Assembly: GCF_000255455.1 (NCBI RefSeq)
Contig: NZ_JH621251.1
Coordinates: 62,001 to 126,000, forward strand
Length of the DNA: 64,000 nucleotides
Direction of reading: 5' to 3'
Source: Aquimarina agarilytica ZC1
GTDB taxonomy: Bacteria; Bacteroidota; Bacteroidia; Flavobacteriales; Flavobacteriaceae
The notes beneath the pieces were generated by a model. That model worked only from the letters and a program-made list of their open reading frames with translations. It did not search any database and was not told the origin of the DNA. Positions 6,463-37,468 of this stretch are shown here, piece by piece (the first letter of the stretch is position 1; every line of letters begins with the position of its first letter). The position numbers and the translations under genes were made by a program.

Positions 6463-7815
6463 TTACCTCAAAAAAATCTGACTATTTGCTACACTCATTT
6501 GGATTTCTTTATCTGTATTTCTAGATGTTGAATATCCATTTAGCATTTGGTTATAATTATCGCCAAGCGAGGTTAACTGCATTGTGTTTTCTGGGATTTC
6601 GATACGACTACGATTCCCTGTGTAAGCAAAATTGTAAGGAGATTTAGGTAGCGTAATTCCTATATCACTATTTTTAGATATCAATGATAATTTTGAAAAT
6701 TTTTCATCTAATTTTAAAATATTTACCATTCCAAAAAGACTTTCTATTGTTCCTTTTCCACTTAAAGATTCGATTTGAACACGACTAGATTTGGCATATA
6801 AATTAATATCATCAACTTGGTTTAGTGTTGATTTTTTCACATAACCTAAAGATAAATTCCCAGCTTCCCAGTGATTAACCGACACTGGTGCAAATGAAAC
6901 TACTAAATCAGTATCAACTCCCGAAACCTTTTCGGCATTAAAGGGCGTATATTTCATTTCTGCCTTGGCATTTGCTAACTCATTGATAACACTCACCTTT
7001 CCATAACGTGTTTTAAACCTCAACTTTGCACTAAGTGGAACATAGACTTCTAATACTTTTTTTGAAGAAACTTCTACTGTTGAAGTTGCACTAAGCGTTT
7101 GTGAAAATTGAATATAATTTGGTTTATTCACAACAACATTATTCGGTACCAAAACTTCATTAACCACATTAGAATTAGTTACTTGTTGTAAATTAGACGT
7201 TGCATTTTTAGACCATTTACGTACTTCGGTAGCAGATTTAGGATCTAAATCTTTAACTAAATTGTATTCCCAAATTTTAAGATAAGTTTCGCCTAATTTA
7301 TCGTAGGCATTAAAATCAAACTGTAATTGAGCCAAACTGCTTTTTAATGATGCTGGTATGGGGTTATTTTGCACATTTTCAAGTACAGGGGCCATCATAG
7401 CTTGCATTAACTGTGCTAGTTTTTCCTGAGATATGTCACCTGTTATATTGTAAGCTGTAGTAGAAACTGTTCGTTTTGGTCTACGAGAAGCATCTGATGA
7501 AATGATCAATAATGAATCATTCTCATTAATTTGCACTTCCCATAAATCAACTTGTTCCTTGAGTCCTTCTGTATCTTCTGCTGCGCCTTTTACATAAGCA
7601 TTAACAAAAATTTGATCCTTATCCCAACTTTTAAAAACAATATCGGTGTACAAGGCATTAAGCTCTAATACAGCTATGCGTTTTGTAGTAAATTCTTTTT
7701 TTAATTTGGAAACTATGCTTTGTGCTAAAAAAACCTGTGCACTAAATAGGAAAACAACCGCAACTACTGCTTTATTAAGCTTGATGATTCTTGTATGTTG
7801 GGTTAGTATATTCAT
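6463..7815 (-). CDS. secreted DUF4097-like beta-helix protein of an ECF sigma operon
   Basis: About 450 residues with an N-terminal signal peptide (hydrophobic segment roughly 15-31, ending FLAQS). The C-terminal half has the alternating short beta-strand pattern of DUF4097-type putative adhesins (for example residues around LFGMVNILKLDEKFSKL). Its start overlaps the end of the upstream anti-sigma-like gene by 41 bases, so the two are probably translationally coupled. It is the last gene of a three-gene sigma operon. Role unknown: it may be an envelope-stress output or sensor. The DUF4097 assignment rests on pattern recognition, not a search. Confidence 0.7.
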   Translation of the reverse strand: MNILTQHTRIIKLNKAVVAVVFLFSAQVFLAQSIVSKLKKEFTTKRIAVLELNALYTDIVFKSWDKDQIFVNAYVKGAAEDTEGLKEQVDLWEVQINENDSLLIISSDASRRPKRTVSTTAYNITGDISQEKLAQLMQAMMAPVLENVQNNPIPASLKSSLAQLQFDFNAYDKLGETYLKIWEYNLVKDLDPKSATEVRKWSKNATSNLQQVTNSNVVNEVLVPNNVVVNKPNYIQFSQTLSATSTVEVSSKKVLEVYVPLSAKLRFKTRYGKVSVINELANAKAEMKYTPFNAEKVSGVDTDLVVSFAPVSVNHWEAGNLSLGYVKKSTLNQVDDINLYAKSSRVQIESLSGKGTIESLFGMVNILKLDEKFSKLSLISKNSDIGITLPKSPYNFAYTGNRSRIEIPENTMQLTSLGDNYNQMLNGYSTSRNTDKEIQMSVANSQIFLR

Positions 7816-8407
7816 GTAGATTTTTAAGTTTTTCCTTCAATTGCTGTAGCAATTCTAATCGCATTTGTAAATTTTGTATTAAAGCTTCAAGCGTTTGTGA
7901 ATTTGTGCCATCTTGCCTTAATTCCTTTTGTAATGTTTTATACTCTTCATCCAACTGACTTAAATGCTGCATAAAACTATCCACAACACTTTTATTATCA
8001 TCATTAATTTTGAGCTGAGCTAATTCAACATTAATGGATGTTAAATAATAATCTTCAACTTTTTTAAATTCTGGAGAGACATCTGCTAATGAAGGTAAAA
8101 CAGCTTCATTAACCACACTCATATTATATACGTTTAAATCATCGGGCTGTTGCACTTTATTTGTTGTATTTAATCCTGTAAACACATAAGCTCCTAAACC
8201 TATAGTTACTACAACTGATGCAGCAATTGACATATACCAATTTGTGTTTTTCTTTAAAACCACTACATCATCAGCCCCATTCACTTCATCAGGAAAAGCC
8301 TCATTGAGTTTGTCTAAAAAACGAAGTTCATGATTGTCATTAATATCAACTGAACTTTGGTCTTTAAATAAGTCACCTTGTAATAATTCTCTAATATCCT
8401 GTCCCAT
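7775..8407 (-). CDS. single-pass membrane protein, probable anti-sigma partner
   Basis: 210 residues. A short N-terminal cytoplasmic segment is followed by one transmembrane helix (about 57-80, WYMSIAASVVVTIGLGAYVF) and a periplasmic part whose C-terminal half is a predicted coiled coil rich in Leu, Gln and Glu. It starts inside the end of the ECF sigma gene (17-base overlap) and its end overlaps the next gene, a layout typical of sigma/anti-sigma pairs. No zinc HxxxCxxC anti-sigma motif is visible. The anti-sigma role is therefore inferred from position and topology. Confidence 0.65.
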   Translation of the reverse strand: MGQDIRELLQGDLFKDQSSVDINDNHELRFLDKLNEAFPDEVNGADDVVVLKKNTNWYMSIAASVVVTIGLGAYVFTGLNTTNKVQQPDDLNVYNMSVVNEAVLPSLADVSPEFKKVEDYYLTSINVELAQLKINDDNKSVVDSFMQHLSQLDEEYKTLQKELRQDGTNSQTLEALIQNLQMRLELLQQLKEKLKNLHEYTNPTYKNHQA

Positions 8408-8936
8408 GTTTCAAGTGCTTTAATTGCTCTTGTAAGCGTTTCTTCCCTCTATGTACCAATGTTCTTGATGATACTGCCGTAATTCCTAAAATTTCAGAAA
8501 TTTCGTTATGATCATATCCCTCTAATAAAAATAAATGTATTGGATATTTATATTTTTCAGGCAAACTTTCAATAGCTTTCTTAACCTCATCGGCAGTAGT
8601 CGTATCTTCAACTTCCCAATTTTCAAACTCATCTGGAGTCCCCATGATTTGCTCATTGAGCGCAGTTGTTTCCAACTTGCGTGCCTTAAGCATATCAATA
8701 CTCTTATTAATTACAATTCGTTTTAACCAAGCTCCAAAAGTAACATCACCTGTAAATTGATCTAATTTTGAAAAAGCTTTTATAAATGATTCCTGCATAG
8801 CTTCTTCGGCCAAAAAAGAATCTTTAAAAAAACGATACGCCACAAAGTACATCCCACGCGAATATTTATTGTAAAGCTCCATCTGGGCTTTACGATCCTT
8901 CTTGCGGCAGCGTGCTATTAATTTTTTATTATCCAC
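8391..8936 (-). CDS. ECF-type RNA polymerase sigma factor
   Basis: 181 residues, with sigma region 2 (about 22-60, YNKYSRGMYFVAYRFF and AEEAMQESFIKAF) and sigma region 4 with a helix-turn-helix (about 125-172, YDHNEISEILGITAVSSRTLVHRGKKRL). First gene of an operon with a membrane protein and a secreted protein, both overlapping in sequence. A promoter with ECF-like boxes lies 20-50 bases upstream, suggesting autoregulation. The regulon is unknown. It is not closely similar to the FecI-type factor at 13440. Confidence 0.93.
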   Translation of the reverse strand: MDNKKLIARCRKKDRKAQMELYNKYSRGMYFVAYRFFKDSFLAEEAMQESFIKAFSKLDQFTGDVTFGAWLKRIVINKSIDMLKARKLETTALNEQIMGTPDEFENWEVEDTTTADEVKKAIESLPEKYKYPIHLFLLEGYDHNEISEILGITAVSSRTLVHRGKKRLQEQLKHLKHGTGY

Positions 8937-9844: not shown

Positions 9845-12370
9845 TTACCAAAAAACACGTAAGCTTAGGTTGGGAGTAATCCCTAAAGCTTCATAATTTA
9901 AGGTAAGAAAGTCCTTTGATATGCTACCTGGTGTCGATCTAAATTCACGATTTATAATTGATTTTCTATTATAAATATTAAGTACCGAAAACCCTAACTG
10001 ATACCTAAAACTATCTGAGAATTTAAAATTATACAACATGGATGCGTCTAGCTTATGATAGACTGGCAAATTATCTTCATTAAGGTTTTTTAAATCAATA
10101 CCATCACCCGTCAACACTACAGAATCAGAATCTGTAGCAGCCTTACCTGTGTGCCACAACCAACTTAATGAGAATTGAAATTTTTTATACTGATAAAAAT
10201 GCAACCATTTGAAGGTATGATCTATGTTTAAATTGGCCGTGAAAAATTTATTATCGTTTAAATCTTCAAATTTATTTTTTTGATTTGTGTAACTATAACT
10301 TACCCAAGAGGCATAATTTTTATACTTCTTTTTAACAAACATTTCGACCCCCTCTACATTATTTAGTCCTAAAATTAACCGTTGACTATCTGGCGTTAAA
10401 AAACCTGTGGTTAATGAGGTAACATTATTTGTTCTTTTAATGTAACTATCAAACTCTATAAACCAAGTTTTAGTTTTATACGTAGCTCCAAATGATACTT
10501 GCCTTGTTCTTAATACATCAAATTCATTATCCGTAACTCGCCACAATTGATTTTCAAGAGACAAACTACTCACAACCGATTCTTGAATTTGAGTTATAGC
10601 TTGACTTCTTAATGAAAAAGAAGTATTTACATTTACATTAGGCAACACGGGTACTTCTAAATACAACCTGGGTTCAATAAACACATCATTAGTTATGGAA
10701 TAAAAATTTCCACGAACACCCATTTGTAACAAAAATTTATTTTTTGATTTTATCTCATATTGAGAAAATACACTATGAGTATCTAATTCACTTTTTTCTT
10801 CATCTTTGACTACCGAAATACTAAAAAATCTACTCCTTAATGCAAATCGGATATTCGTTTTGGAATATTCATACCCCAACTGTAAACTTGATTGTTTTCC
10901 TAATTTTAGTACTCCAAAAGTTTGTGCTCCTATATCATTTATAAAATTTTGCTTACTATCTTCTTTTTCTGAGGAAGCTATGTCATCTTCTATATTACTA
11001 AATGTATAATCTAATGCATAATTCGACAAATTAACCTTAGTACTTTGCGAAAACCTATCACTATACCTTCTCTTCCATTGTATATTGTAACCTTCATTTT
11101 CAGTAATTAATTCATCAGAAAACATGATATTCCCAGTACTACTATCAAAACTTAAATCATTTTTTGTAACTAAAGCATTTACTTGTAAATCATCTTTTTC
11201 CGAAAGTTTACCTTGTATACTAAAACTATAATCTACAAAATAAAAGCTATTTGTGTTGTTTGAAGATGACTCATTAATTTTAGTATTCTGAAATACGCGC
11301 TCTGCCATTTGCTTATAGGTGGGTGATTCCCATAAATCATTAAAGGACCTTCTGCCTGCTATTTCAATTGATAATCGATCTTTAATTATTGGAACTCTAG
11401 CAAAAGCATCTGCATGTATCAAATTTGTACCTATACCTCCTTCGAATTTTGAAGCTACCTTTTGAGAGGATTTTAAATCTATAACTCCTGCTACTCGATC
11501 TCCAAATTGTGCATTAACTCCTTTACTATAAAAATCAATTTCTTTTATTAAATATGGATTAAATGAAGATATTAAACCAAAAAAATGACCTTGATTATAG
11601 CTTTTTATCCCATTCCACAATACTAAATTTTGATCCGGTGTACCACCACGAACACTAAGCCTAGAAGCAGTTTCAAATGGACTTTGTACTCCGGGTATAT
11701 GCTGTAAACTTTGCATTACATCTGGCTCAGTTAGTCCTGCTATTACACTAAACTTTTTGGGGGTGAACATTATTTTTTGGAATTTTTTATCAACACCCTT
11801 TGTCAAATATTGCCACAGATTTACTTCCTTTAACTCTTGATGATAAATAGAAAAAAATAGGTCTGGACATTTCTCTTTAAAAAGTTCACTTGCCTTTTTT
11901 TTCTCCAAGACACTGGCATTGAATTCAAAAACTAAGGAACTGTTGTAAGGTACTTGTATTTCAAAAAAACCATTTTGATCACTATAAGTTTGCTTTAAAT
12001 TAAATACCGAACTTATACTTATACCACTTTGGATTTTCCTATCTAATCTAGTTATACCACATATTGTAATCATGTCATCATCTAAAAATGGTCGAATGAC
12101 TACTTTTTTATCTTCTACAAATTCAAAACGTAAATGAACTTGCTTTTCTAATGAACTTATTATTTTGGTTAGATTATCGGAATTTATAGGTTTTACACTT
12201 TTACCTACATAAGAATCTATATATGTGAATTTTAAGTCAAACTTACTTTCTAGAGTTTGGATATATTCTTTCAGAATGACAGTTTCAAGATCATTTTCCT
12301 GAGCTCGAACATTCATTACAAAACAAAATAACGTGCACAAGCACAATACCCAAAACTTTTTTTGACTCAT
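9845..12370 (-). CDS. TonB-dependent outer-membrane receptor with STN-like signalling domain
   Basis: 841 residues. Signal peptide at 1-23 (ending VRAQ), then an STN-like domain at about 28-95 that in FecA-type receptors contacts FecR. A carboxypeptidase-D regulatory-like beta-sandwich follows at about 100-175, then a plug domain at about 215-300 containing GGTPDQNLVLWNGIK and FGDRVAGVIDLKS, and a beta-barrel to a terminal aromatic (LSLRVFW). It directly abuts fecR upstream: the ATG at 12370 touches the fecR stop at 12371. It is therefore the third gene of a sigma - FecR - receptor operon. The ligand cannot be read from the sequence and no SusD-type partner is adjacent. Confidence 0.88.
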   Translation of the reverse strand: MSQKKFWVLCLCTLFCFVMNVRAQENDLETVILKEYIQTLESKFDLKFTYIDSYVGKSVKPINSDNLTKIISSLEKQVHLRFEFVEDKKVVIRPFLDDDMITICGITRLDRKIQSGISISSVFNLKQTYSDQNGFFEIQVPYNSSLVFEFNASVLEKKKASELFKEKCPDLFFSIYHQELKEVNLWQYLTKGVDKKFQKIMFTPKKFSVIAGLTEPDVMQSLQHIPGVQSPFETASRLSVRGGTPDQNLVLWNGIKSYNQGHFFGLISSFNPYLIKEIDFYSKGVNAQFGDRVAGVIDLKSSQKVASKFEGGIGTNLIHADAFARVPIIKDRLSIEIAGRRSFNDLWESPTYKQMAERVFQNTKINESSSNNTNSFYFVDYSFSIQGKLSEKDDLQVNALVTKNDLSFDSSTGNIMFSDELITENEGYNIQWKRRYSDRFSQSTKVNLSNYALDYTFSNIEDDIASSEKEDSKQNFINDIGAQTFGVLKLGKQSSLQLGYEYSKTNIRFALRSRFFSISVVKDEEKSELDTHSVFSQYEIKSKNKFLLQMGVRGNFYSITNDVFIEPRLYLEVPVLPNVNVNTSFSLRSQAITQIQESVVSSLSLENQLWRVTDNEFDVLRTRQVSFGATYKTKTWFIEFDSYIKRTNNVTSLTTGFLTPDSQRLILGLNNVEGVEMFVKKKYKNYASWVSYSYTNQKNKFEDLNDNKFFTANLNIDHTFKWLHFYQYKKFQFSLSWLWHTGKAATDSDSVVLTGDGIDLKNLNEDNLPVYHKLDASMLYNFKFSDSFRYQLGFSVLNIYNRKSIINREFRSTPGSISKDFLTLNYEALGITPNLSLRVFW

Positions 12371-13300
12371 TTATTTTTTCACTTGGCGTAAAATACGAAT
12401 TTCTTTATCAGAAACAAATTCATATTTTACTCCCAAGGTACCAAATACCATATATAATGCCTTATTTAAATCTTTATTAGAAAAACTTCCTGTAAAAACA
12501 ACATCACTGCTAATTGACTCCATGTTAAGCACTTTAACACCATACTGACGCTGTAATGACGTAATCACATGGCTTACTGGTACTCCATTAAAAAGTGTTT
12601 CGTTTGTTGTTGTCCAACTTGGAGCTAAAGCCTCAAAATTCCATTGTTTTCCTTTATCCTTATATAGTTGATAAGCATTTCCTTTAGTTAAAATCACTTC
12701 CCCCTCATTTGTAGTAACACTCACTCTACCTTCAAAGCACTTTACAATCAATAAATCATCATTTATAGTGTTTACAGTAAACTGTGTTCCCAACACCTGA
12801 ACTGTTCCAATAGTAGTTTTAACACTAAATTTCTCTCCTTTTTTAACCTTAAAATAGGCCTCTCCGTCTAATTGAACTTGTCTATTACTATTATCCCATT
12901 GTCCCTTATCAACTTTAGCTGAAGCCATTCCATTCAAAATAACAGTAGATCCGTCTGGTAAAGTAATATTTTTATGTTCTGCAATACCACTTTCATATAC
13001 AGTATCTGAAAAGTTAAATGTATATAAACCTATAGCCAATATTAGACAAGCTGCAACTGCTCCAACCCATTTGTAAAGCGAAATTACTTTAGTCTTTTTA
13101 GGGGTATTGATTCTATTTTTCAGTTTCGAAAACGCTTCGATTTCATCATAATCTGAAAAAGACATGTTCGATGTGACTTTATTAATCCTAACATATTCCT
13201 CATAATGCGGATGCAACTCAAAATCAGCTAGTTGATCTGGTGTTAATTCACCCGATAACCATTTCGCTAAAAAAGTTTCGTCAAGTTTGTTATCTTTCAT
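12371..13300 (-). CDS. FecR-family anti-sigma/signal transducer
   Basis: About 309 residues. It couples ligand occupancy of the neighbouring TonB receptor to the adjacent ECF sigma factor. An N-terminal cytoplasmic segment contains FLAKWLSGELTPDQLADF. It is followed by one transmembrane helix (YKWVGAVAACLILAIGLYTF), the FecR beta domain (ITLPDGSTVILNGMASAKV, GTQFTVN) and a C-terminal DUF4974-type domain. A longer frame to 13387 exists, but ATG 13300 (MKDNKLDE) gives the usual FecR start and leaves the promoter-like element at 13320-13354 outside the coding region. Confidence 0.93.
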   Translation of the reverse strand: MKDNKLDETFLAKWLSGELTPDQLADFELHPHYEEYVRINKVTSNMSFSDYDEIEAFSKLKNRINTPKKTKVISLYKWVGAVAACLILAIGLYTFNFSDTVYESGIAEHKNITLPDGSTVILNGMASAKVDKGQWDNSNRQVQLDGEAYFKVKKGEKFSVKTTIGTVQVLGTQFTVNTINDDLLIVKCFEGRVSVTTNEGEVILTKGNAYQLYKDKGKQWNFEALAPSWTTTNETLFNGVPVSHVITSLQRQYGVKVLNMESISSDVVFTGSFSNKDLNKALYMVFGTLGVKYEFVSDKEIRILRQVKK

Positions 13301-13319: not shown

Positions 13320-13354
13320 TTAATACGCTTATTGCTAAGATTTACCCTACCCCC
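13320..13354 (-). promoter_or_regulatory. bipartite promoter-like element before fecR
   Basis: On the minus strand a GGGGTAGGGTAAATC block (13339-13353 region) is followed by TAAGCGTATTAA (13320-13331). The same pair in the same order occurs at 14038-14070 before the divergent lipoprotein gene. A G-rich -35-like part and a CGT-containing -10-like part suggest recognition by the local ECF sigma factor. Confidence 0.55.
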
Positions 13355-13439
13355 TTGTAAATTTTTTTTCTTACAATAATCGAGCATTTACCCCTTTAGC
13401 ATCTGTTTTTCAGAGACAAGCATATTATACTTATCTATT

Positions 13440-13964
13440 TTAAATATCTCCAATTTCTGATCTTACTTTCAATAATGCTTTGTGCATTAGTTTTTCAACT
13501 GCTTTTACAGATACTCCTGATAGTTCGGCAATCTCCTTATATGTTTTTTTCTCTATCCGACTTAACATAAATACCTGACGTTGTCTATCAGGTAAATTCG
13601 CAATAATACGCTTTACCTTTTCTTTAAACTCTGTTTCTTCCATTAAGAACTCTGGAGATTCACTTGTGACAATATCATTTTGATGCATCACAATATTTTG
13701 ATGCTTAAATTTTACCTGATCATGTCTCTTGGTACTTATTCCTAAATTAATGGCAATTTTGTATAAATAACTTTTGGCTGTTTCAGGGTTAACTTTATCA
13801 CAATTTTTCCAAAGTTTAACAAAAGCTTCTTGCACCAAGTCTTCTGCCAAATCCATTTCTCCAAATTTCACAAACAAAAAATTCCTTAAAGCTCTAGCTT
13901 GAGCTTTAAAAAACAATTCGTAAGTCCGGTCTCCACACAAGGAAGTTTCTTTTGAATTTTGCAT
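13440..13964 (-). CDS. ECF-type (FecI-like) RNA polymerase sigma factor
   Basis: 174 residues, with sigma region 2 (about 20-60, FLFVKFGEMDLAEDLVQEAFVKLWKNC split over core helices) and sigma region 4 with helix-turn-helix (about 115-165, LPDRQRQVFMLSRIEKKTYKEIAELSGVS). It lies about 140 bases upstream of fecR and is the head of the sigma - FecR - TonB receptor set. It probably transcribes fecR-receptor and possibly the divergent lipoprotein gene, because both carry the same upstream element. Confidence 0.93.
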   Translation of the reverse strand: MQNSKETSLCGDRTYELFFKAQARALRNFLFVKFGEMDLAEDLVQEAFVKLWKNCDKVNPETAKSYLYKIAINLGISTKRHDQVKFKHQNIVMHQNDIVTSESPEFLMEETEFKEKVKRIIANLPDRQRQVFMLSRIEKKTYKEIAELSGVSVKAVEKLMHKALLKVRSEIGDI

Positions 13965-14037
13965 TAAAAATTATTTACAGAAGCCAAAAGTAATTTTTTT
14001 TTTATATTCATTCTCGTCAAAAAAATTATTTTTATTA

Positions 14038-14070
14038 GGGGTAGGGTAAATCGTACTCTAAGCGTTTTAA
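14038..14070 (+). promoter_or_regulatory. bipartite promoter-like element before the divergent lipoprotein gene
   Basis: GGGGTAGGGTAAATC (14038-14052) then TAAGCGTTTTAA (14059-14070). The first block is identical over 15 bases and the second 11 of 12 to the element before fecR. It points toward the gene at 14205, 135 bases downstream. Confidence 0.5.
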
Positions 14071-14204: not shown

Positions 14205-15437
14205 TTGAAAAAACAACATTACTACATATCGCTTATTTTTTTCATGCTTCTTTTAGGCTGTGTTTCTGAAGAAGGTACTTTTGAGGAAGACATCATGTCA
14301 CCTACAAAAACTTCATTTGCACCCACCATGTTTGATTACCTTTATAATCTATCGGGTAATTGCTTTGAATTAGAATTCCCTTTGAGCGTGTTTACTAACA
14401 CAGGAATGCTTATTACCTTTTTGGATCAAAATGGTGTTAATGAATTTAAAAATACTCAAAACTCAAATTTCTTTATCGAAGGTATCACCTTCCCTTTTTC
14501 TGTTACTTTAGATGAAGCATCTTCCTTAACTATAAGAGATAATAATGATTTTTCTAACTTACTAACTACATGCTCCGTACCCTCATTTAGTATGATTTTA
14601 TCACAAGGTATTGTTAGTTGTTTTGATTATGAATATCCTTTACAGGTTACATCAACTTTAGACCAAAGTAACTCTAGAGCTGTTAATAATTCAATAGATT
14701 TTCTTGACTTTTTAACTGATTTAAATTTTTCACAAATAACCCTTGATTACCCTGTCACTACAGATACAGGAATAACAATTAACAATCAATTTGAGCATTT
14801 TAATGCTTTAAGAAACAATTGCAAAGTAATTATTACGCCTATAGACGAAAATGATGATTGTCCTGATTTATTTGATTTTGACATTGAATACACAAAGCCT
14901 CAAGTAAATAACACTACCTATACTTTTACATTAAACATATTGGATGACCATACACCAACAAAAATAGAGTGGTTAATTAATGATCAAATTATAGAAGGTG
15001 AAACGGAGACAACATTAGCATATGATATTATTAAAAATGGCGTATACAATGCATGCGCTAAGCTAACTTTTTCTGGATGTACAGAAGTTGTTGAGGTGTG
15101 CCAAATCCCGCCTCTTTTTGTAATCGATATTAATGAATTTTGTAGCCCTAACGTAGAATTAAAAGTTGAAAAAAGCAGCCTTAATCCTGCCGAATACAAT
15201 TTTAAAGCTATTTATAGATCTATTGACCATGATGATATCACCTACACATGGACGATAGACAATGGCATTACTTTAAATAGTACTCCTATTACAGAAACAT
15301 CTAACGAACTTACTTACACTTTTTCCAAAGCAGAAACAAATAGAATATGTGTTACCGTAAATAACCCTAGTTGTTTTAGCGATGACGACATAATTACAGA
15401 CTGTAAAATAATTACTATTAATGATGAAGACTTATAG
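14205..15437 (+). CDS. lipoprotein with two duplicated modules and PKD-like domains
   Basis: 410 residues beginning with TTG at 14205; an in-frame stop at 14196 rules out anything upstream, and the first internal ATG would destroy the signal peptide. A lipoprotein signal ends in LLLGC (Cys 19). Two similar ~90-residue modules follow (near 50-120 with CFELEFPLSV and near 130-205 with CFDYEYPLQV). Two PKD-like Ig domains end the protein (about 225-300 and 310-405, with YTWTIDNG). No enzyme motif is seen. It is divergent from the sigma/FecR/receptor operon and shares its promoter-like element, so a surface partner of that receptor is a reasonable inference. Confidence 0.75.
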   Translation: MKKQHYYISLIFFMLLLGCVSEEGTFEEDIMSPTKTSFAPTMFDYLYNLSGNCFELEFPLSVFTNTGMLITFLDQNGVNEFKNTQNSNFFIEGITFPFSVTLDEASSLTIRDNNDFSNLLTTCSVPSFSMILSQGIVSCFDYEYPLQVTSTLDQSNSRAVNNSIDFLDFLTDLNFSQITLDYPVTTDTGITINNQFEHFNALRNNCKVIITPIDENDDCPDLFDFDIEYTKPQVNNTTYTFTLNILDDHTPTKIEWLINDQIIEGETETTLAYDIIKNGVYNACAKLTFSGCTEVVEVCQIPPLFVIDINEFCSPNVELKVEKSSLNPAEYNFKAIYRSIDHDDITYTWTIDNGITLNSTPITETSNELTYTFSKAETNRICVTVNNPSCFSDDDIITDCKIITINDEDL

Positions 15438-29154: not shown

Positions 29155-29209
29155 TATAAACCAAAATGGTATCATTCTTGATCAAGGAATGATACCATTT
29201 TGGTTTATA
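29155..29209 (+). terminator. very long hairpin terminator of the exporter operon
   Basis: 23-bp perfect stem (left arm 29155-29177, right arm 29187-29209) with a 9-base loop, followed by CTATTTTTC. The loop is itself the palindrome TTGATCAA plus one base. It ends 17 bases before the next start codon. Confidence 0.8.
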
Positions 29210-37154: not shown

Positions 37155-37468
37155 AAAACTAATTAGTATCTACACATTGAACGAATTATACCACACAAGT
37201 AAATTTTAATAGAACGTATGTTTTTATTAAAAAATTAACATTATTACAATTATAAAAAAAATCTTACAAGGAGTGGTAGGGATAATTCTTTGAGATGCGT
37301 ATTACATTAAATTATTTATTTTATGAAAACATCATCACTGCTAGAACATGCTCCAAAAAATAGTAGTATTAATGGCAGTAACTTAAAGTTGCGGTAGTTT
37401 ATTATCATTGCCATAAATTAAAGTGCAAAAATATAAACAACTACAAACCAGAAACTTTTAAACAAAAA
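37155..37468. other. intergenic stretch, possible 24-codon ORF only
   Basis: AT-rich spacer of about 315 bases upstream of the BNR-protein gene and past the nqr operon. The only frame is a 24-codon ORF on the + strand (37323-37397, beginning MKTSSLLEHAPK). There is no promoter or binding-site evidence, so its status is unknown. Confidence 0.3.

Follow-up and report, generated by a model that had tools for sequence, protein, structure and literature searches.

A predicted ECF sigma factor promoter on both sides of a FecI-like sigma gene in Aquimarina agarilytica and its candidate regulon of surface proteins and short RNAs

Some small RNAs depend on a sigma factor of the extracytoplasmic function (ECF) class, as do MicA and RybB of Escherichia coli, which are made under the control of sigma-E and through which enterobacterial sigma-E acts. 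FoxJ of Fusobacterium is reportedly another small RNA that depends on an ECF sigma-E. The closest described counterparts of the genes considered here are the FecIRA system of E. coli and the cell-surface signalling (CSS) systems of Pseudomonas, and the available part of PMC9249621 describes fecIR as not autoregulated. The locus in question lies in a 64,000-nucleotide stretch of the genome of Aquimarina agarilytica ZC1 (GCF_000255455.1, contig NZ_JH621251.1, positions 62,001 to 126,000), the whole of which is called the window below, where a two-part element occurs on each side of an ECF sigma gene. Comparison with relatives makes it highly probable that each copy serves as a -35/-10 promoter for the sigma factor whose gene lies between the two, driving fecR-receptor feedback, a divergent lipoprotein gene and a scattered regulon that includes short RNAs. 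The element pair is an ordinary ECF promoter and is well supported as such, and what would be new is the predicted regulon, above all its RNA families. The features of the locus are as follows, in window coordinates.

13320..13353, minus strand: predicted ECF promoter of fecR and the receptor, with GGGTAGGGTA at 13352-13343, N15 and CGTATT from 13327
14038..14070, plus strand: predicted ECF promoter of the divergent lipoprotein, with GGGTAGGGTA at 14039-14048, N14 and CGTTTT at 14063-14068
13440..13964, minus strand: ECF sigma factor of 174 amino acids, Bacteroidota FecI-like (Pfam sigma-70 regions 2 and 4)
12371..13300, minus strand: FecR-type anti-sigma factor (Pfam FecR PF04773, 5.5e-16; FecR_C PF16344, 1.4e-08)
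9845..12370, minus strand: TonB-dependent receptor of 841 amino acids, a probable signal transducer (Pfam Plug, 1.2e-08)
14205..15437, plus strand: lipoprotein with a 'CFxFxYP' region and Ig-like/PKD-like repeats (PKD, 2.6e-05; family present in relatives)
13985..13992, minus strand: TACTTTTG, which resembles the Bacteroidota sigma-A -7 box (TAnnTTTG), 20 nucleotides before the sigma ATG

An earlier note on the window had described a bipartite element occurring twice, with 7 and 6 nucleotides between its blocks, and had placed the ECF sigma gene between the two copies. Both copies are present, and the sigma gene does lie between them. The minus-strand copy consists of GGGGTAGGGTAAATC at 13353-13339, a 7-nucleotide gap and TAAGCGTATTAA at 13331-13320, and the plus-strand copy consists of the same 15-mer, GGGGTAGGGTAAATC, at 14038-14052, a 6-nucleotide gap and TAAGCGTTTTAA at 14059-14070. 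The blocks themselves had to be redrawn. The conserved halves are GGTAGGGTA and CGTTT, and after comparison of relatives the two original blocks were given up as a unit in favour of GGTAGGGTA-N14-CGTTT. The spacing between these true halves is N14 in the plus-strand copy and N15 in the minus-strand copy.

An exact 15-mer repeat pair followed by an 11-of-12 match in the second block was seen in one of 20 Markov-1 controls of the window. The second block alone is weak, with 43 matches in the window at up to 2 mismatches compared with 33.5 expected. There are 15 such repeat pairs in the window itself, and the eight that are listed comprise the element pair and seven from an inverted repeat near 29155-29209. 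This long local inverted repeat (TATAAACCAAAATGGTATCATTC...) surfaced in the control and is recorded as a separate feature of the window. There is no third copy of the 15-mer in the window at up to 3 mismatches, a looseness at which 1.15 chance matches are expected. When its gap is allowed to vary, the two-part pattern has three matches across the whole 4.25-Mb source genome, and the 15-mer alone with 3 mismatches has 77 matches compared with 86 for a reversed control, which is background. Thus, the signal resides in the spacing and in the second half.

There are 80 named loci from a GTDB-based collection (Aquimarina, Kordia, Cyclobacteriaceae, Fulvivirga and others), and from their comparison the element is redefined as a predicted ECF promoter of the form rGgTAGGGTa-N14-CGTTt. 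In its strict form, whose -10 may begin with C or T, the motif precedes fecR in 66 of 79 loci, is present in the divergent arm of 52 of 78 and occupies both places in 48 of 77. Reversed-pattern and opposite-strand controls over the same intervals give 0 strict matches. Among the 145 relaxed sites used for spacing, the halves are separated by N14 in 134 and by N15 in 11. There are 30 sigma-ortholog loci in the genus set, of which 27 have sites flanking the sigma gene on either side and all 30 have at least one (up to 3 mismatches, an uncontrolled count), with a single site at L043, L044 and L045. These genus sites consist of a match to GGGTAGGGTAA and then CGT, nearly always 13 nucleotides on (N14 after the first ten bases). 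At the RNA loci described below, the halves of the promoter carry 1.75-2.0 bits per base and the spacer 0.8-0.9, which is close to the 0.6-0.8 of the flank.

The -35/-10 geometry and the CGT box, oriented towards the gene, cause us to read the element as an ECF promoter. The earlier proposal that the pair is the binding site of the ECF sigma factor is strengthened by the paired sites in relatives, by this geometry and box, and by the co-occurrence with the sigma ortholog and the background counts in other genera given below. A literature search on the motif letters returned, among the matches listed, none related by title.

There are 117 matches to an exact form of the motif (RGGTAGGGTD-N14-CGTTT) across 52 Aquimarina genomes, compared with 2 for a reversed control. 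The corresponding numbers for 148 genomes of the family's other genera are 5 and 3, which is background level. At least one exact match is found in 42 of the 43 genomes with the sigma ortholog and in 2 of the 9 without it (Fisher p 2e-6), where the ortholog is called at 54% identity or more, a cut chosen after the identity gap was seen. Some of the nine absences may be gaps, because G046 is 55% complete and G023 is 89% complete. More distant sigma matches are present as well in most of the genomes.

Several observations weigh against assigning the element to this sigma factor in this simple form. Neither strict site is found in 9 of 77 loci, some of which carry divergent or N15 forms. The fecR copy in the window is itself off consensus (N15, CGTATT), and the plus-strand site lies 167 nucleotides from the annotated lipoprotein start, compared with about 90 nucleotides in many relatives. 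The close relative L072 has no site before either of its lipoprotein genes, and L073 and L074 have none adjoining sigma in the divergent arm. Five exact sites fall inside open reading frames (ORFs; L197, L198, L215, L214 and L199), probably by chance. Finally, paralogous sigma loci have a similar (near-identical) -35 with TGTT or GGTT as the -10, and four loci of the CGTT group (L087, L094, L100 and L126) have TGTT in the divergent arm. These last forms mean that other sigmas could use some of the sites.

The element might instead be a promoter common to several paralogous FecI-type sigma factors, with the one encoded between the copies being only one of its users. There are three further sigma loci of the same type in the source genome (C3, C41 and C44), and it favours a shared promoter that C44 carries AGGTAGGGTC-N14-TGTT and GGGTAGGGTT-N14-GGTT near its sigma gene. 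The same holds for a distinct sigma clade of 15 loci (Kordia, Psychroserpens, others and L139, which is the second locus of a genome that also has the sigma ortholog), where the -10 is TGTT and the promoter is often AAGTAGGGTA-N14-TGTT. However, C3 and C41 have no element between sigma and fecR, and the distribution of the exact CGTTT form follows that of the ortholog (42 of 43 against 2 of 9) despite the distant sigma matches in most genomes. Sigma residues 76, 77 and 80 also split the CGTT from the TGTT group almost completely, a division that is confounded with phylogeny. It may be that the family has the -35 in common and that the -10 discriminates. We regard a promoter shared in this way as rather unlikely, and we prefer to assign both copies to the sigma factor encoded between them.

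The divergent lipoprotein had been proposed as a member of the receptor's regulon, and its relatives argue for this. There are 80 ORFs related to it in the named loci (phmmer, E<=1e-3), and 63 of these have a site within 450 nucleotides upstream, compared with 0 in a reversed control. Two or more lipoprotein genes stand in tandem at several loci, often each with its own site. In the closest relatives an extra lipoprotein gene without a site sits between sigma and the counterpart of the window gene, and this counterpart is preceded by a site in L073 and L074, not in L072. At several Kordia-related loci there is a divergent site without a closely following ORF of at least 100 amino acids. A separate observation concerns L087, L094, L126 and L131, where a conserved stretch lacking an ORF (TTAAGTTTTAAGTTGGTTTTAGGT-like) comes after the divergent site and is convergent to a similar 449-amino-acid gene in all four; this stretch is possibly another RNA unit.

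An AlphaFold model of the window lipoprotein has a mean predicted local distance difference test score (pLDDT) of 81.9 and a predicted template modelling score (pTM) of 0.53. It contains beta domains that resemble Ig/FnIII folds by structural matches, and there are conserved cysteines in the family. The structural neighbours were set aside as a clue to the ligand, being generic Ig/FnIII folds with low query TM-scores that are uninformative on this point.

Beyond the lipoprotein, the predicted regulon is wider than the earlier note had proposed, and would take in substrates of the type IX secretion system (T9SS), M57 peptidases and intergenic units without an ORF. In the source genome there are sites, differing in strength, before three M57-peptidase genes (C10:134173, which is exact, and the weaker C60:3752 and C1:186474), and by eye all three genes appear lipoprotein-like. 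Sites are also found before genes for a T9SS-sorted protein (C11:37169), a DUF285/PARCEL surface protein (C9:57602), a PKD-like lipoprotein (C47:2864) and a lipoprotein without a known family (C25:45019). Others precede ORFs of 24-48 codons and the genes of further proteins whose N-termini look signal-like. At up to 3 mismatches the source genome has 13 matches against 5 in the control, and one of them (C9:81404) falls inside an ORF. Thus, the weakest source-genome sites are chance in part.

Among relatives, 30 loci were inspected, plus 45 exact sites in 40 fetched regions whose classes were read manually. There are 17 exact sites before exported-protein genes, 20 that are intergenic without a close ORF, the 5 inside ORFs mentioned above and 3 that are unclassified, so that the 117 exact sites in 52 genomes do not give the picture of a motif that is frequent at unrelated genes. 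The exported-protein targets include a CotH-like T9SS protein (L202) and a T9SS-sorted family (L206, L210). A script detected a terminator-like hairpin within 420 nucleotides at 11 of the 20 intergenic sites. A toxin-family name for L031 was discarded as noise (16.2 of 380 bits).

There are two side observations on short ORFs. The window has a weaker site at 37274-37303 on the plus strand (TGGTAGGGAT-N14-CGTATT) with a 24-codon ORF 19 nucleotides on, as judged by eye, and the gene convergent to this ORF is one that we take to encode Na+-NQR subunit F. A 32-codon ORF (MRFLHTHFRFSFKIMMNFIKELPSSCGYAIRR and relatives, also by eye) lies downstream of a site in three genomes (L177, L196 and L201), and is possibly a small peptide of the regulon.

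There are four candidate RNA units associated with the promoter, and at least one of them is found in 24 of the 52 genomes according to the genome lists. Family A has eight loci with a conserved 26-nucleotide stretch and a terminator with compensatory stem changes. A model of its body without the promoter (R1), searched against the 52 genomes at E<=0.01, gave 19 matches, of which 8 are the training sequences and 11 are new. The promoter is located at the same distance in all six new matches with E<=3e-4 and in none of the five with E>0.002. One of these six, in G023, has a one-base insertion, and the sigma ortholog was not found in that genome.

Family B is characterised by a stem, AATCTGT...ACAGATT, around GTTTrAGGGACAAA, plus a terminator. 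Its promoter-free model (R2) gave 21 matches, 5 from training and 16 new, and the promoter is directly upstream of 14 of the new ones; the two exceptions (G010 and G005) are also without GGGAC. In 17 sequences (16 distinct), 95.3% of cells pair, and there are 19 both-side changes compared with 4.8 in shuffles and a maximum of 6 in slid versions. Seven of the eight pairs that carry such changes belong to the terminator helix. A further model (R3), applied to 199 genomes of the family (2 of them Aquimarina, with no match), found only promoterless terminators, in 4 genomes, all outside the genus. Alignment A2 leaves out L204, whose body looked too different, and A4 leaves out the near-identical L255 and L257. 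The weak matches dropped as promoterless terminators are the 5 of family A with E>0.002, L258 and L261 of family B, and the 4 R3 genomes.

The third unit, family O, runs downwards from C29:27178 in the source genome for about 230 nucleotides to a terminator. Its counterparts in G005 (89% over 125 bases) and G035 (84% over 106) bring the number of genomes to three, and in both of these the promoter is 36-37 nucleotides ahead of the extrapolated body start. A 209-base query gave further short weak matches (E>=1.6e-4) in 16 genomes besides G000, G005 and G035, known from the search output only. The fourth unit, in G027 (L195:1131-1630), consists of three tandem near-identical copies about 170 nucleotides apart, each with a promoter. 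Two copies share a terminator, the third ends in another hairpin, and the whole looks like a multiplied small RNA gene.

Families A and B, and family O in its three genomes, each combine a sigma-type promoter, the absence of an ORF, a terminator of their own and a conserved body, as is looked for in a small RNA. A convergent gene comes next at every locus whose neighbours were inspected (9 of family A and 5 of family B), which argues that these units are not 5' leaders. Rfam gave nothing at the gathering score in the 20 loci scanned.

Alternatively, the intergenic sites could be relic promoters of lost genes or promoters of short peptides, in which case the RNA families would not be functional small RNAs. 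There are four loci (L157, L163, L190 and L205) at which the promoter is kept while only a decayed tail seems to be left of a T9SS-sorted protein gene, one that L162 and L210 have in intact form, and these can be read as relics; the 32-codon ORF described above, and the hairpin at little more than half of the intergenic sites, point the same way. (These four loci and L212 were considered as a third RNA family and rejected, since on manual reading the shared hairpin is the end of the T9SS sorting-domain gene.) However, families A and B have conserved bodies and compensatory terminator changes, which in family B far exceed those in shuffles. Promoter-free searches recovered homologs most of which have the promoter at a near-fixed distance, and the next gene is convergent wherever these two families were inspected. 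We therefore find it unlikely that the sites are relics or peptide promoters, and we favour short RNAs transcribed from the predicted promoter.

It is very improbable that a classical DNA-binding regulator rather than a sigma factor binds the element. Two-part operators do exist and sequence is the sole type of data, but the halves are direct and not palindromic, their orientation and distance to the fecR start are fixed, they have -35/-10 spacing and a CGT box, and the sigma gene lies between the copies. Since the copies face outwards around one gene, they could also be read as the terminal inverted repeats of a mobile element or as the product of a recent duplication. This is hardly credible because the comparative data show an identical arrangement in loci that carry the labels of several families, the spacers have diverged and many single copies are unlinked.

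The sigma protein best matches the NCBIfam model TIGR02985 at 118.4 bits, just under the cut-off of 126.4, and does not reach the FecI equivalog NF041727 (63.8 bits, cut-off 260). The FecR protein is likewise below the cut-off of the NCBIfam FecR equivalog (44.8 bits, cut-off 385). If the fecR ORF were opened at 13387 it would take in the promoter, and the fitting start is at 13300, 52 nucleotides from the motif. The distance from start codon to motif start is 48-53 nucleotides in 66 of 78 relative loci and 43-56 nucleotides in 73 of 78, and this conservation is the reason for placing the window start at 13300. Relatives of the receptor are present in 77 of the 80 named loci. PF16344 (FecR_C) is found at the N-terminus of all nine other receptors scanned (E 7.5e-10 to 0.13), above the cut-off in four, and Pfam STN itself appears in two of the nine, below the cut-off only. 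The window receptor has no N-terminal signalling-domain match in Pfam at E<=1.

In the window, the ECF motif is absent before the sigma gene in that gene's orientation. The box found there instead resembles TAnnTTTG, the Bacteroidota sigma-A -7 box consensus as quoted in the available part of PMC9723704. The window also contains a second ECF sigma, SigW-like, at 8391-8936 on the minus strand, and a possible membrane anti-sigma factor without a Pfam match at 7775-8407 on the same strand; a search of the window found no copy of the element near this sigma.

The system looks like FecI/FecR/TonB surface signalling with a small-RNA arm, and a single switch that senses the surface probably governs a small regulon made up of cell-surface proteins together with small RNAs. 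We infer transcription from these sites, binding by this sigma, the signal or ligand, and the function and targets of the RNAs. Following the FecI/FecR/FecA paradigm, a ligand would bind the outer-membrane receptor, and the FecR anti-sigma factor would then release or activate sigma. The freed sigma would transcribe fecR and the receptor gene, closing a feedback loop in which brake and sensor both increase. It would also transcribe the divergent surface lipoprotein and the scattered lipoproteins, T9SS substrates and M57 peptidases, and in Aquimarina species the short terminator-bounded RNAs. The sigma gene itself would depend on its sigma-A-like box. Because fecR lies behind the element and, in the window, sigma does not, activation should raise the anti-sigma factor and so damp itself. 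Through the RNA arm, this signal would also reduce other mRNAs.

A broader statement would be that a FecI/FecR/TonB sigma factor of marine Bacteroidota controls its receptor and Ig-like lipoproteins, plus several unrelated regulatory-RNA families recruited separately by Aquimarina lineages, so that outer-membrane sensing builds surface proteins and silences or tunes mRNAs; we would weigh the case for and against this evenly. The literature searched, which did not cover most subscription papers, gave no description of a FecI-type sigma with a small-RNA arm in Bacteroidota. For one class of surface-sensing systems in Bacteroidota, the analysis supplies a promoter sequence that can be tested, makes the regulons of such systems predictable from sequence and links such a system to small RNAs.

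The locus shares with E. coli FecIRA and Pseudomonas CSS an ECF sigma factor, a FecR anti-sigma factor, a TonB-dependent receptor and a sigma-dependent promoter feeding the receptor, and in the window its sigma gene is likewise without a copy of its own promoter. It differs in that the predicted promoter lies between sigma and fecR, which would make the anti-sigma factor itself a target, and in that a divergent Ig-like lipoprotein, unlinked surface proteins and RNAs would use the same promoter. In the main text of PMC9249621, as far as available, the terms 'small RNA' and 'sRNA' have 0 occurrences. An ECF sigma/anti-sigma pair controlling outer-membrane uptake genes is also a feature of the SusCD-type polysaccharide utilisation loci of Bacteroidota, in the available parts of PMC11697453 and PMC12596196. 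The present locus does not qualify as one of these, since at E<=0.001 the receptor has no match among the NCBIfam SusC models and no ORF of SusD size adjoins it. The SM6 promoters of Flavobacterium psychrophilum, in the available part of PMC9723704, have targets related to T9SS and a comparable CGT-box ECF geometry. Their listed targets differ in including T9SS machinery genes and an ECF/anti-sigma pair, and the available text, its logo aside, does not mention a GTAGGG-type -35. With the sigma-E-dependent small RNAs the locus has in common an ECF sigma that drives short RNAs, which here are predicted, and it differs from them in that the sigma is of the FecI/FecR/TonB type and belongs to Bacteroidota.
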